Positions 1 through 3,588 of a stretch of 32,681 bases of DNA are shown one piece after another. Origin of the DNA: Erysipelotrichaceae bacterium (lineage in GTDB: Bacteria > Bacillota_I > Bacilli_A > Erysipelotrichales > Erysipelotrichaceae); the NCBI GenBank assembly GCA_030523555.1, contig JAUNIH010000016.1, positions 1 through 32,681 of the forward strand, read 5' to 3'. The translations under genes were made by a program, and so were the position numbers. Positions within the stretch are counted from its first letter, which is position 1. Every line of letters begins with the position of its first letter. The notes beneath the pieces were generated by a model, which made no database searches, had not been told where the DNA came from, and was given only the letters and a program-made list of their open reading frames with translations.

Positions 1-2
1 CA

Positions 3-59
3 TATGAAGACATAGCAAAGACACATACACACGATAGGATAAAAAGCCAAGAAATATAA
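3..59 (+). CDS. C-terminal end of an off-window gene (partial)
   Basis: One frame stays open from the window edge to a TAA at 57-59. It encodes 18 residues ending in KSQEI. The stop abuts a strong terminator hairpin, which is what one expects at the 3' end of a real gene. Too little is present to name a family. The other two plus frames hit stops within the first 17 bases. Confidence 0.45.
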   Translation, partial: YEDIAKTHTHDRIKSQEI

Positions 60-80
60 AAGTCTCGAAAGAGACTTTTT
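58..80 (+). terminator. Rho-independent terminator of the off-window gene
   Basis: Stem AAAAGTCTC / GAGACTTTT with a GAAA tetraloop, followed by a T run. It starts at the stop codon of the partial gene. Confidence 0.8.
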
Positions 81-81
81 A

Positions 82-108
82 AAATAAAAGGACACGATTC
101 GTGTCCTT
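82..108 (-). terminator. Terminator of the Hsp20 gene
   Basis: Read on the minus strand, a 9-bp stem AAGGACACG / CGTGTCCTT with a 3-nt loop is followed by TTATTTT. It lies about 10 nt past the Hsp20 stop, back to back with the terminator of the plus-strand gene. Confidence 0.75.
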
Positions 109-117
109 AGGGGGGAA

Positions 118-540
118 CTAATTTATGGAAACAATCTGTTTGGTTTCAATAGCCTTCTGTTTGGATGAAGGAAGAGATACCATCAGCATTCCTTCTTCAA
201 ACTTAGCGTTGACATCTTCAGCTTTGATGTTGTCGCCGACATAGAAGCTTCTTGAACATGATCCGAATGATCTTTCCTGTCTGATCAGCTGACCTTTATC
301 ATTCTTTTCTTCATCAGAGTATTCATGTCTTGCGCTGATTGTCAGATATCCATCCATGATTTCAATAGATACATCTTCTTTCTTGTATCCTGGAAGTTCA
401 ATATCGAGAGTGAAATAACCGTCCTTTTCATGAACGTCAGTCTTCATGAAAGAAGTAGTTTCTAATGGTTTTGGCATGAAATCATCAAACATTTCATCGA
501 ATAAGCTGTTATATCTGTTATACATAGGGAAATTTCTCAT
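118..540 (-). CDS. Hsp20/alpha-crystallin family small heat shock protein
   Basis: Encodes a 140-residue ATP-independent holdase chaperone that binds unfolding proteins in the cytoplasm. The N-terminal part resembles clostridial Hsp18. The alpha-crystallin domain covers about residues 35-130 and shows the family signatures ELPGYKKEDV and the C-terminal FEEGMLMVSLP (A-x-n-G-x-L type) motif. The ATG at 540 is chosen because AAGGAGG lies 7 nt upstream on the minus strand. An upstream in-frame ATG at 591 would lie almost on the predicted transcription start and has no ribosome site. The gene is monocistronic, with a terminator just after the stop. A TTGACA-N16-TATTAT promoter carries CIRCE operators, so repression by HrcA and induction by heat or unfolded-protein stress is likely. 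Identification is secure. Confidence 0.95.
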   Translation of the reverse strand: MRNFPMYNRYNSLFDEMFDDFMPKPLETTSFMKTDVHEKDGYFTLDIELPGYKKEDVSIEIMDGYLTISARHEYSDEEKNDKGQLIRQERSFGSCSRSFYVGDNIKAEDVNAKFEEGMLMVSLPSSKQKAIETKQIVSIN

Positions 541-595
541 TTTAAATACCTCCTTGTTTCTCATTTGTATGTGGGTTAATTCCTTAACCATTCTT

Positions 596-623
596 ATAAT
601 ATCACTTTCATTAGCACTGTCAA
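596..623 (-). promoter_or_regulatory. Promoter of hsp20
   Basis: On the minus strand TTGACA (618-623) is followed after 16 nt by TATTAT (596-601). The -35 box lies inside the first CIRCE element, so HrcA binding would block RNA polymerase. Confidence 0.75.
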
Positions 624-637
624 TAGGAAAGTGCTAA
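611..637. promoter_or_regulatory. CIRCE operator 1 (HrcA binding site)
   Basis: TTAGCACTG - N9 - AAGTGCTAA matches the CIRCE consensus (TTAGCACTC-N9-GAGTGCTAA) at 16 of 18 arm positions, with the exact 9-nt spacer. It overlaps the hsp20 -35 box. Confidence 0.9.
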
Positions 638-660
638 TACTCCTGATAAACGAGTGCTAA
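634..660. promoter_or_regulatory. CIRCE operator 2, degenerate left arm, overlapping operator 1
   Basis: The right arm GAGTGCTAA (652-660) is a perfect consensus arm. Exactly 9 nt upstream, CTAATACTC (634-642) matches the left arm at 6 of 9 positions. It shares 4 bp with the right arm of operator 1. The perfect arm and exact spacing argue against chance, but binding is untested. Confidence 0.6.
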
Positions 661-751
661 ATTTATTTAAAGAATAATTTAGGATATCCCCATTCTTTTA
701 CGAATAATGTATTAGGCAAAAATACATGAAGAAGGAATAGAGGATTAAAGA

Positions 752-1303
752 ATGGTTTTAAAAGGAAATAAGGACATTGTTTACTATAGAAGAAACGGAA
801 AAATGTTCTGGTTTAACAGAGTCTGGAGAGTCAGAAGAGTTGAAAAAGAATTTATGAGAGACTGTACTCCCGGTATTGGAAGAGTAATAAAACAGAATGG
901 TTATAGAATTGACAGAAATAAAAACGAATATAAAACAGCATACTGGATTAAAGATAATTTTGGTGGAGATATTATATGCATAAACGAAGAACTGAATCGT
1001 AAAGACAGTGAATCCAAACCAGATTATATCTGGAAAGGAAAATGGTGGGATCTGAAAAATCTGAACGGGGCATCCGGTTTATCCAAAAGATTAAAAATTG
1101 CCATATATCAGATAAACAGCAATACCGAAAGAGAACCTGGTGGTGTAATACTTGATATAACTAACGCCGGTATATCTGATAAAGATGCCATCGCTATAGT
1201 AAAAAGAAGACTGAGTGAATCTGCCAAGACAAAGATGCACGTTATTATCAAAAGAAAACTGAAAGTGGTCGCGATAATAAAGGCAGAAAAAAAGCAGACG
1301 TAA
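752..1303 (+). CDS. Orphan CdiA C-terminal tRNase-like (PD-(D/E)xK fold) nuclease
   Basis: A 183-residue basic protein with AGAGGA 7 nt before the ATG. The C-terminal half resembles the CdiA_C tRNase toxin domain, a restriction-endonuclease-like fold that is found at the tips of contact-dependent toxins and at the ends of some Firmicute phage/ICE head proteins. Visible landmarks are YWIKDNFGGDI (64-74), glutamates 79-80, and P90-D91 followed by D100-L101-K102, which is a PD-x8-D-x-K arrangement. No delivery domain (filamentous CdiA, LXG, phage head) and no signal peptide is present, and no immunity gene follows. The first 60 residues are Arg/Lys/aromatic rich and unrecognised. It is flanked by hsp20 (divergent) and a direct-repeat pair. 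It may be a captured toxin tip, a housekeeping RNA nuclease, or inactive. The family call rests on motif recognition without a search. Confidence 0.55.
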   Translation: MVLKGNKDIVYYRRNGKMFWFNRVWRVRRVEKEFMRDCTPGIGRVIKQNGYRIDRNKNEYKTAYWIKDNFGGDIICINEELNRKDSESKPDYIWKGKWWDLKNLNGASGLSKRLKIAIYQINSNTEREPGGVILDITNAGISDKDAIAIVKRRLSESAKTKMHVIIKRKLKVVAIIKAEKKQT

Positions 1304-1330
1304 CCCGCTCCATTTTTTCTAGCGAACCGG
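1304..1330. repeat. 27-nt direct repeat, copy 1
   Basis: Begins immediately after the nuclease stop with CCCGCTCC, then a T6 run and CTAGCGAACCGG. It contains short complementary segments (CGCT/AGCG, CC/GG) and could form a small hairpin with a T-rich loop. Its partner lies at 1392-1417. Confidence 0.75.
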
Positions 1331-1391
1331 CTCGCCTGCGACAAATATATATTAACATAAAATACAGTTATAAACAATAAAGCAGCCATAC

Positions 1392-1417
1392 CCCGCTCCA
1401 TTTTTCTAGCGAACCGG
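1392..1417. repeat. 26-nt direct repeat, copy 2
   Basis: Identical to copy 1 except for one T fewer in the T run. It is enclosed by the inverted arms AGCAGC (1381-1386) and GCTGCT, so this copy can sit in the loop of a larger stem. The two copies repeat with an 88-nt period. The rest of 1304-1508 is AT-rich and holds the probable prs promoter. Confidence 0.75.
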
Positions 1418-1478
1418 GCCAGCTGCTGTACTTAAATAATAACACACAATATGTATCCTATTATTGTAAATATTTGTA

Positions 1479-1484
1479 TATAAT
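1479..1484 (+). promoter_or_regulatory. Probable -10 box of prs
   Basis: Perfect TATAAT 24 nt before the prs ATG. No good -35 box is seen at 16-18 nt upstream, so the call is tentative. Confidence 0.45.
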
Positions 1485-1508
1485 TAGTATGTCTAAAGAG
1501 GTGGAAAC

Positions 1509-2927
1509 ATGAATAACGCAATCATCTTTATCAGAAATGAAGAAGAACAGTCTCTGTCTAAAGCTCCATATCTTGGTGGTAACCTTCTTATTCATACAGT
1601 AGATGAATTAAAGAAGGTAAATGCCATTAAAAATATCTATATTGTAGGTCTTAAACTGGAAATTCCGGGTTGTGAGACAGGTATGGAAATTGATGAAGTA
1701 ATAGATATTATAGAAAAAGAAGAAGGTAAGACCTTACTGGTATCTCCTTTATATCCTGAAACAAACGGTGATGATTATCGAAGACTGTTGAAGAAGGAAA
1801 ATCCTTCAATAATGGTCTGTGAAGGTGAAGTATGCGGAAGTTTTATGATTCCTAATGATGGTTTAAGAGATTATGAAGAGCTTGATTATGAATCATATGA
1901 AATAAGACATAAGATTATTAAAAAGTTTTCTAAAGAAGAAGCGGAAAGACTTGGTGGGGCCAATCTTGATGATGTAAAGATCTTCTCACTTACTTCTTCA
2001 CATAACCTTGCCAAAGAAGTATGTCACTATCTTAATCTTGAACTTGGTAAGATTGAGGTTAAACATTTTGCGGATGGTGAAACCCTTGTAGAACTGGGTG
2101 AAAGTGTCCGTGGCAAAAGAGTATATTTTATTCAGAGTACCTGTAAACCGGTTAATGATACATTAATGGAAGTGCTGATTGCGATTGATGCCGCAAGAAG
2201 ATCTTCAGCTTCCGAGATTACCTGTGTTATTCCGTATTTTGGTTATGCGCGACAGGACCGTAAAGCCTATCCACGTCAGCCGATTACCGCAAAACTGGTT
2301 GCGAAGATGTTAGAAGAAGCCGGCGCAAACCGTGTAGTTACATTTGATTTACACGCTGCGCAGATTCAGGGTTTCTTCAACTGTCCGGTTGATGATCTGA
2401 CTACTGTTCCTATGATGGGCCAGTACTTCAGAAGAAAGAACCTTGATCCTGAAAAGACAGTAGTTGTATCTCCTGACCATGGTGGTGTAAAACGTGCGAG
2501 AAATCTCGCAGAAATGTTAGGTACAACCATCGCGATTGTCGATAAAAGACGTCCACAGGCCAATGTCTGTGAAGCCTGCAATGTCATCGGTGATGTTGAA
2601 GGCATGGATGCGATTATCGTCGATGATATCTGTGATACCGGCGGTTCTTTAATCGCTTCGGCCAATATCCTTAAGGAAAACGGGGCTAAAGATATCTATG
2701 TCTGTATCGCTCATGGACTCTTCTCTCATAACGCTACCCAGCGTATTGAAGATTCAGCCATCAAAGAAGTTGTCGTATCTAACTCCATTCCGGTTCCGAT
2801 TGAAGAACTCAAGAAGACGACAAAGATCAGAACCCTGTCTATCGGATGGATGTTAAGTAAACTGATACTTGCCGTTCAGTGTCATACTCCGGTTTCGGAA
2901 GTATACGCCTTATACGAAGGTAATTAA
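1509..2927 (+). CDS. prs: Ribose-phosphate pyrophosphokinase with GlmU-like N-terminal extension
   Basis: Makes PRPP from ribose-5-phosphate and ATP, feeding pyrimidine, purine, NAD, His and Trp synthesis. Residues about 152-472 form a complete class I Prs (usual length about 317): FADGE near 188, IPYFGYARQDRK near 241, H282, VDKRRP at 344-349, and the PRPP loop D372-D-I-C-D-T-G-G-S380. The first 150 residues are extra. Their pattern (aiIfi..., SKAPYLGG, IYIVG at 43-47, then TLLVSPLYPET) follows the N-terminal half of GlmU-type nucleotidyltransferases, but the G-x-G-T-R-M nucleotide loop and the metal-binding GD are missing, so it is probably catalytically dead. In Bacillus, glmU (gcaD) and prs are neighbours, so a relic fusion is plausible. 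AGAGGTGG precedes the ATG at good spacing. The gene ends at its own terminator. Prs function is secure; the role of the extension is unknown. Confidence 0.95.
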   Translation: MNNAIIFIRNEEEQSLSKAPYLGGNLLIHTVDELKKVNAIKNIYIVGLKLEIPGCETGMEIDEVIDIIEKEEGKTLLVSPLYPETNGDDYRRLLKKENPSIMVCEGEVCGSFMIPNDGLRDYEELDYESYEIRHKIIKKFSKEEAERLGGANLDDVKIFSLTSSHNLAKEVCHYLNLELGKIEVKHFADGETLVELGESVRGKRVYFIQSTCKPVNDTLMEVLIAIDAARRSSASEITCVIPYFGYARQDRKAYPRQPITAKLVAKMLEEAGANRVVTFDLHAAQIQGFFNCPVDDLTTVPMMGQYFRRKNLDPEKTVVVSPDHGGVKRARNLAEMLGTTIAIVDKRRPQANVCEACNVIGDVEGMDAIIVDDICDTGGSLIASANILKENGAKDIYVCIAHGLFSHNATQRIEDSAIKEVVVSNSIPVPIEELKKTTKIRTLSIGWMLSKLILAVQCHTPVSEVYALYEGN

Positions 2928-2935
2928 TAAGATAT

Positions 2936-2964
2936 ATCCCTGGCCTCATGGTCAGGGATTTTTT
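2936..2964 (+). terminator. Terminator of prs
   Basis: 10-bp stem ATCCCTGGCC / GGTCAGGGAT (one G-T pair), TCAT loop and a T6 run. Confidence 0.9.
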
Positions 2965-2968
2965 GTAA

Positions 2969-2974
2969 TATAAT
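2969..2974 (+). promoter_or_regulatory. -10 box directly upstream of tsaC
   Basis: Perfect TATAAT in the context TTGTAATATAATTTG. Only 8 nt separate it from the tsaC ATG, and no Shine-Dalgarno site fits in between. Transcription would start within about 2 nt of the start codon. Confidence 0.6.
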
Positions 2975-2982
2975 TTGAATGT

Positions 2983-3588
2983 ATGGAAACACTGAAATTA
3001 AGTAAAAAAGATATTAATAAAATCATAGAAATACTAAATAATGGCGGTCTTGTCGCTTTTCCAACCGATACTGTTTTTGGCCTGGCGTGTAAGATGGATA
3101 AAGAATCTATTTCCAGAGTCTATGAAGTAAAGGGCAGAGATTTCAATAAGGCTTTACCGGTAATGTGTAACTCTAAAGAAATGATTGAAAGAATAGCTTA
3201 TATAAATATAGATGCCGAAAAGATTATGGAAAGATTTATGCCGGGGGCTATAACTTTAGTCTATAAAAAGAAAGAAGAAGTAGAAGACTATGTTACCCAG
3301 GGTAAAGATACTATCGGTATCAGAGTTCCTGATGATGAATGGATACTTGAACTGATAAGTAAACTTGATCATCCGATTATGGTGACAAGTGCCAATATAT
3401 CAGGTAACGGATCTTTACTTAATTGGGAAAGTGTCTACGAATGTATGAAAGATCATATTGAGGGAATCATTATGGAAGATGCCAGAGGACAGATGTCTTC
3501 AACGATTGTGGATGTATCATCTGATGATATAAGGATTTTAAGAGAAGGTCCGATATCAATAGATGAAATAAGGGAGTGTCTTGGATAA
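2983..3588 (+). CDS. tsaC: L-threonylcarbamoyladenylate synthase (TsaC/Sua5/YrdC family)
   Basis: Makes threonylcarbamoyl-AMP from threonine, bicarbonate and ATP, the first step of t6A37 tRNA modification. The 201-residue protein is of TsaC length, without the C-terminal Sua5 domain. Family marks are GGLVAFPTDTVFGLA near 18-32, KGRDFNKALPV near 50-60, TSANISG near 135-141, and the closing STIVDV...ILREGP. No ribosome site precedes the ATG. A TATAAT box ends 8 nt upstream, which points to a leaderless or nearly leaderless mRNA. The start agrees with where the family usually begins. The stop TAA overlaps the nagA ATG by 1 nt (TAATG), so the two are translationally coupled. Confidence 0.92.
   Translation: METLKLSKKDINKIIEILNNGGLVAFPTDTVFGLACKMDKESISRVYEVKGRDFNKALPVMCNSKEMIERIAYINIDAEKIMERFMPGAITLVYKKKEEVEDYVTQGKDTIGIRVPDDEWILELISKLDHPIMVTSANISGNGSLLNWESVYECMKDHIEGIIMEDARGQMSSTIVDVSSDDIRILREGPISIDEIRECLG

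Follow-up and report, generated by a model that had tools for sequence, protein, structure and literature searches.

A solo CdiA-CT-type nuclease gene with phage toxin relatives, and a predicted antisense hairpin RNA at the 3′ ends of its family

The described systems closest to the gene studied here include the CdiA-CT nucleases and the MuF polymorphic toxins of phages. Four CDI toxins, that of Burkholderia pseudomallei 1026b (Bp1026b) included, are placed in the PD-(D/E)XK superfamily, each with immunity proteins (PMC9086364), and tRNA nuclease activity is described for the 1026b toxin (PMC5576092). For MuF toxins, entry into cells along with phage DNA was put forward as a hypothesis, and a small ORF was found behind 89.4% of 191 MuF toxin genes (PMC5576092); MuF immunity was reported in the form of proteins, IapK and Aph1 (PMC12226406). 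The immunity factors given for MuF and CDI toxins in these papers are proteins. Among the top-ranked matches in the open-licence literature, preprints being outside the scope, no RNA antidote for a MuF or CdiA-CT nuclease was found.

We analysed a stretch of 32,681 nucleotides from an Erysipelotrichaceae bacterium (contig JAUNIH010000016.1, hereafter the window), in which an intact ORF of 183 aa starts with ATG, preceded at about 8 nt by AGGA, and lies between hsp20 on its 5′ side and prs, the PRPP synthetase gene, on its 3′ side. The features of the locus are as follows; all promoters and RNAs, here and below, are predictions.

118-591, minus strand: hsp20.
752-832, plus strand: N-terminal beta-rich tag (DIVYYRRNGKMFWF), common to solo toxins at prophage ends (FYRTKNG-type).
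752-1303, plus strand: solo CdiA-CT (Bp1026b-type) PD-(D/E)xK nuclease of 183 aa, assigned from predicted fold and profiles, with conserved E59, D91, D100, K102 and Q120.
1287-1293, minus strand: predicted U7 stretch of the antisense RNA, contributed by Lys codons close to the gene end, with a terminator-like site at 1311-1291 (minus strand).
1294-1339, minus strand: predicted antisense hairpin RNA, copy 1 (dG -21.5 antisense, -8.2 sense), its 3′ arm overlapping the last nuclease codons.
1349-1377, minus strand: candidate promoter of copy 1 (TTGTTT, 17 nt, TGTTAATAT, the last an extended -10), with a weak -35; score 8, threshold 9.
1382-1426, minus strand: predicted antisense hairpin RNA, copy 2 (dG -22.2 antisense, -12.7 sense), with a near-identical core and a different outer stem.
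1436-1444, minus strand: candidate extended -10 of copy 2 (TGTTATTAT), without a good -35, recognised by eye.
1509-2927, plus strand: prs.

The nuclease motif reads P90-D91-x8-D100-x-K102, and E59 and Q120 are also conserved in the family alignments. The window nuclease has no delivery domain, and neither a CdiA delivery protein nor a CdiI-like ORF downstream was found; the ORF list of the window holds no sense ORF of at least 40 aa between the nuclease stop (1303) and prs (1509). A MuF domain is present neither in the protein nor directly upstream, the 5′ gene being hsp20 on the opposite strand. The nuclease gene occurs as a single copy in its own genome of 1.79 Mb. Among 35 genus mates searched, 32 gave prs matches, and at the 29 loci inspected neither the nuclease gene nor hsp20 was detected by tblastn in the ~1.5 kb upstream of prs. 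An ispE-like gene (named by eye) lies upstream of prs in 28 of these 29 loci (L040 starts at a contig end); a search of the window's own genome, made without a positive control, did not detect ispE. The prs gene of the window has ~150 extra aa at its N-terminus, similar to the beginning of a ~370-aa protein that genomes G001, G002, G008, G015, G018 and G020 encode in a separate gene upstream of prs; judged by this resemblance, a truncated neighbour has become fused to prs in the window, a change within a single genus. The inverted repeat at 612-638 (TTAGCACT..AGTGCTAA), 5′ of hsp20, we take to be CIRCE-like, which suggests control of hsp20 by HrcA.

The family of the protein was predicted using Pfam, a family profile and a structural model. 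CdiA_C (PF18451) was the sole Pfam match of the window protein at E <= 1 (E 1.7e-4, 22.1 bits, under the curated cutoff of 26.6), and no match to ToxN, CptN or TenpN was obtained. PF18451 was matched at E <= 0.01 by 19 of 21 family members, the window protein included, with a best value of 2.1e-22. A profile of the 21 members, run against solved structures, found CdiA-CT 4g6v at E 2.4e-4, followed by the next solved sequence at 0.99. The AlphaFold2 model, computed from the window protein and nine relatives, reached a pLDDT of 83.7 and a pTM of 0.78, and a second-look aligner placed the CdiA-CT/CdiI complex 4g6v on top (Z 9.8, 121 residues, 3.7 A), with the restriction enzyme PaqCI second (Z 8.3). 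The CdiA-CT assignment rests on this aligner and the family profile and not on plain Foldseek, which returned nothing at E <= 0.001 for the predicted fold. The window protein alone gave nothing in NCBIfam, PHROGs or PADLOC, or by phmmer against solved structures. By profile and model, then, the product of 752-1303 is a solo PD-(D/E)xK nuclease of CdiA-CT type whose best solved match is 4g6v. A preliminary description of this DNA had reported the PD-x8-D-x-K core, a 183-residue solo gene with its own ribosome site, likeness to CdiA-C nucleases, and the lack of a delivery domain and of a small immunity ORF, all of which are borne out here. It had named an unrelated family or a larger conserved non-toxic operon as counting against it, and neither turned up: the family matched is CdiA_C, and the gene was not detected in the ~1.5 kb upstream of prs at the 29 genus-mate loci. 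It had also mentioned BECR families, which are not the fold indicated, this being PD-(D/E)xK, and it had missed the pair of 45-46 nt minus-strand hairpins at the 3′ end of the gene.

Relatives of the nuclease were found in 7 of 147 genomes, the window's own included; a profile search of 315 genomes of the order matched 17, again counting the window's own and with some matches weak, and a class-wide search matched 8 of 395 genomes. Four of 50,697 phage records matched and none of 72,556 plasmids did, and single-sequence scans of viral and genome contigs gave no relatives. The relatives fall into four kinds of context, MuF-fused, split behind a head gene, solo at a prophage end, and solo in the chromosome. 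In the first, the toxin forms the C-terminus of a minor head protein beside a portal gene, as in Faecalibacterium phage Aster (orf2, a phrog_2494 minor head protein), Streptococcus phage Javan573 and others. In the second, a separate toxin gene lies directly behind a minor head gene, in prophages of G001 (phrog_581) and G071 (by eye). In the third, a solo toxin stands at an apparent prophage end after a small gene (phrog_1009) in G287 and G288, with a tRNA nearby in locus L094 and a sub-threshold tmRNA match in L093. The apparently chromosomal solo copies are that of the window, one near a contig end in G008 and four in G639; in G110 and G126, broken solo copies have his-like genes (named by eye) as neighbours. 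The closest relatives of the window nuclease are phage toxins, and the relation to phage head-linked toxins proposed earlier is seen in the copies fused to a MuF protein or encoded just behind one. In the G008 solo toxin (L012), the tag and the nuclease domain are in different frames, and the gene upstream of it (L012 1003-1572) is presumably AbiEi-like.

As the N-terminus of the window protein (DIVYYRRNGKMFWF) resembles that of the prophage-end solo toxins (DIVFYRTKNGSLAYF), the window copy most likely descends from such a toxin. The tag was also searched by itself as a possible wider family; among the better matches beyond its five seed rows, the four inspected, L109-L112, adjoin housekeeping genes. 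As far as the sequences go, the tag is shared by solo toxins and one small ORF, and we make no claim beyond these. The prophage end in L093 holds a further small ORF (23-211), which opens with the FYRTKNG tag but lacks a nuclease domain; phage accessory proteins may have the tag in common as a signal for targeting or loading.

An immunity gene was not recognised behind the family members inspected, which were some of the members and not a systematic sample. Only 102 nt separate the toxin from the next gene in Aster, and 113 nt do so in L010; a usual immunity gene would not fit into such a gap. A 107-aa ORF follows the toxin in Javan573, and L014 has a 94-aa ORF ~220 nt beyond the toxin.

In the DNA behind 17 family members, a hairpin begins at the stop codon in nearly all. 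Read on the opposite strand, this region presents a TTGAC-like box, 16-17 nt, a TGnTATAAT-like box (together a sigma70-like promoter), the hairpin, and a U-tract supplied mostly by lysine codons at the toxin C-terminus. An antisense hairpin RNA of ~40-60 nt is thus predicted at the 3′ end of most toxin copies. For detection, we required a promoter score of at least 9 of 13, a hairpin of <= -12 kcal/mol ending near the stop codon, and at least 4 T in the next 7 positions, a criterion that was tuned on 23 family gene ends. The element was found at 18 of these 23, at 3 of 367 other ORF ends (taken without matching of intergenic lengths), and in 6 of 920 dinucleotide shuffles; when limited to even hairpin lengths, the detector found 10 of the 23 family ends and 0 of the 367 controls. 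Three of the missed ends, those of the window, L012 and L016, have the hairpin and U-tract with a promoter score of 8. L015 has promoter and hairpin within the ORF end (by eye), and L097 has no element.

Because the 23 ends had served for tuning, ends found later by protein search were taken as the test. These passed in 6 of 8 cases from the class-wide search, 5 of 7 from named genomes, and both of two new contigs with identical hairpins from a MuF scan, together 13 of 17 against 3 of the 367 other gene ends (Fisher p 2.5e-18; controls not matched for intergenic length). After related copies were counted once and L148, L149 and L150 were dropped, the hairpins of these three being ones already in the first set, 6 of 10 lineages passed (p 4e-9). 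Among the later misses, the element of L140 lies, as judged by eye, within an extended ORF, L144 has none and is a weak protein match, and L151 and L153 have a strong promoter and U6 with a longer two-hairpin RNA in place of the single hairpin (by eye).

The element follows the toxin domain. One MuF N-domain family was represented by 39 contigs, 37 of which hold the MuF ORF including its stop codon; the element was present in all three MuF genes with the toxin domain (one of them on the L101 contig of the tuning set) and in none of the 34 without it. A pattern of -10 box and RNA core from one group had nine matches in the viral collection, eight of which adjoin a toxin gene at 2-65 nt (six different sequences; three of the contigs were already known) and the ninth of which falls within an unrelated ORF of 1255 aa. 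Solo copies that lack head genes retain the element, and distant members show the same architecture with a different core sequence. The -10 box precedes the stem by a median of 7 nt (34 passing ends, duplicates included), so the predicted RNA would be little more than the hairpin. Rfam gave nothing at the hairpins, in window positions 1-3000 or at the loci of nine relatives. Sub-threshold matches to Rfam GP20-b were seen near the starts of the next, scaffold-like genes (L011 4521-4582, L102 2967-3027, L104 5668-5723). Second RNA copies past the first, as in the window, were seen at L011 4331-4375 and L195 3702-3758, so tandem copies recur. In G639, the four solo copies (L141 757-2073, L143, L146), two of them side by side, each have their own antisense RNA unit; toxin and antisense RNA seem to duplicate there as a whole.

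In the window, the outer stems of the two hairpins differ from each other yet pair in both. Against dinucleotide shuffles the hairpins are moderately unusual (z -1.46 and -2.28, from slightly different cuts, the first without the stem end). The window's own antisense promoters are weak, and they were absent from the output of a separate promoter scan. The repeat pair 1305-1330/1393-1417 was also considered as a mobile or regulatory repeat and dropped, there being no further copies: copy 2 had no further match in its own genome at up to 3 mismatches, and the gapped repeat pattern found only the window pair in that genome and none in 35 genus mates. The window copy may function as a chromosomal toxin-antitoxin unit, or it may be an early remnant.

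The hairpins favour one strand. The antisense fold was the more stable in 32 of 32 distinct hairpins, by a mean of -8.0 kcal/mol, in a test restricted to hairpins found by the detector. Control hairpins picked identically from other gene ends favoured the antisense strand in 24 of 39 cases, with a mean of -1.3 (Mann-Whitney p 1.3e-8). The difference is largely due to G-U pairs, which make up 110 of 596 pairs in the antisense and 13 of 474 in the sense reading. A role as sense-strand terminator was rejected on this test. Eight hairpins from a single group were aligned manually. Pairing holds in 61 of the 64 cells of the outer stem, where 5 of 8 pairs have changed on both sides, and in 64 of 64 cells of the core helix, which includes two invariant G-U pairs. 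A 16-nt core, selected for its conservation, shows no difference in any of 28 gene pairs, the proteins of which are 47-87% and the 4-fold sites 26-57% identical.

Taken together, these observations make it probable, in our judgement, that 752-1303 is an orphaned solo phage nuclease toxin accompanied by a convergently transcribed RNA antidote, which probably binds the toxin. Starting from the computed family, fold, contexts and conservation and from the strand preference and covariation of the RNA element, we infer transcription of the RNA, toxicity and neutralisation of the nuclease, direct binding, and carriage in the virion. Since the domain is fused to a MuF protein or encoded just behind one, it would probably be carried in the virion, on or beside this minor head protein, and be delivered with the phage DNA. 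Self-protection would be provided by the structured RNA of 40-60 nt, transcribed from a convergent promoter just past the toxin 3′ end, starting at about the first stem base and ending in the U-tract of the toxin's own C-terminal codons. As its promoter is separate from the late operon, the RNA would be present in lysogens and protect them at times when the toxin gene is not expressed. The RNA would bind the toxin protein, most likely as a non-cleavable or slowly cleaved substrate mimic. The unit in the window, between hsp20 and prs, would carry the RNA in two copies in tandem, together with a catalytic set that is intact. Two earlier guesses about this gene, that it has an RNA antidote and that it is a phage remnant, fit the evidence; for a third, a domesticated RNase, no supporting evidence was found.

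The first alternative is a type I system, in which the antisense RNA would pair with the 3′ end of the toxin mRNA, causing RNase III decay or a translation block, and would not act on the protein. TxpA/RatA and Fst/RNAII likewise overlap convergently at the 3′ end (PMC4147584), and nuclease toxins have precedents in SymE and RalR. However, complementarity in cis maintains itself and would need neither a core conserved amid synonymous drift nor conserved G-U pairs and a folding advantage of one strand; the RNA is almost wholly paired and offers little seed; and the MuF-fused toxins belong to a head protein whose translation is required. For these reasons, direct binding of RNA to toxin is favoured over action on the mRNA, and we regard the type I reading as unlikely. 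Rather less probable still is that the antisense RNA is no antidote and instead serves as a cofactor, is packaged, or regulates the toxin or the phage head operon. A structured RNA with a conserved core would be suitable as a cofactor too, and its strict linkage to the toxin domain, and to little else, agrees with such a role. Against it, the element is retained by solo copies without head genes, and no other immunity candidate was recognised behind the members inspected (not a systematic set, and the 107-aa ORF of Javan573 aside), as compared with the small ORFs behind 89.4% of 191 MuF genes (PMC5576092). That the hairpins are ordinary terminators beside a decaying, functionless prophage gene is very improbable, since the hairpin with its T-run and the broken copies in G110 and G126, which would suit it, are set against an antisense promoter at the right distance, the near absence of the element from other gene ends, the strand test, and a window ORF that is intact with its conserved residues kept.

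More tentatively, with our confidence falling somewhat short of half, the antidote proposed here may define a class of phage-delivered polymorphic toxins whose immunity lies in a minimal structured RNA instead of a protein; encoded antisense at the toxin 3′ end, this RNA would bind and inhibit the nuclease, diversify along with it and protect lysogens. If so, lysogens would be shielded from toxin injected by related phage particles, which would amount to RNA immunity to a delivered toxin, and the system would be type III-like with a new toxin fold and gene layout. An RNA of ~45 nt that accompanies the toxin whether it is fused, split, at a prophage end or in the chromosome would account for the failure to see an immunity gene. 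The element would offer a genetic handle on MuF toxin function and would represent a new RNA-protein toxin-antitoxin arrangement.

Compared with CdiA-CT/CdiI of Burkholderia pseudomallei 1026b (4g6v, PF18451), the window protein has the same PD-(D/E)xK domain, this being its best profile and structural match among solved structures. It differs in having neither CdiA/CdiB delivery nor a CdiI-like ORF, in the phage head context of its relatives, and in the predicted RNA element that takes the place of an immunity gene. The MuF polymorphic toxins (Jamet et al. 2017, PMC5576092) resemble the relatives that are fused to or right behind a MuF protein in gut phages. The window copy differs from them in lacking the MuF domain, though many relatives have one in the protein or directly upstream, and the immunity reported for MuF toxins consists of small ORFs or proteins, in contrast to the antisense RNA predicted here. 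Type III systems (ToxIN, CptIN, TenpIN) likewise pair a nuclease with a small structured RNA that is presumed to inhibit it directly, and tandem copies of the RNA, seen in the window and at L011 and L195, are a further similarity. Here, however, the RNA would be made from the opposite strand at the toxin 3′ end from its own promoter, whereas type III RNA repeats are described upstream in the same operon, with a terminator ahead of the toxin gene (PMC5086642). A single hairpin stands in place of pseudoknot repeats, and the toxin fold is different. With type I systems such as TxpA/RatA and Fst/RNAII, the locus shares a convergent antisense RNA at the toxin 3′ end, here by position and predicted signals, and with SymE/SymR and RalR/RalA also a nuclease as toxin. 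The usual type I toxin is small and hydrophobic (SymE and RalR being exceptions), whereas the window encodes a nuclease-like protein of 183 aa; in the family, the toxin is a nuclease domain of ~150 aa, often within a head protein, and the fold and core of the RNA are conserved in a strand-specific manner. The element fits neither type I nor type III in all defining points.
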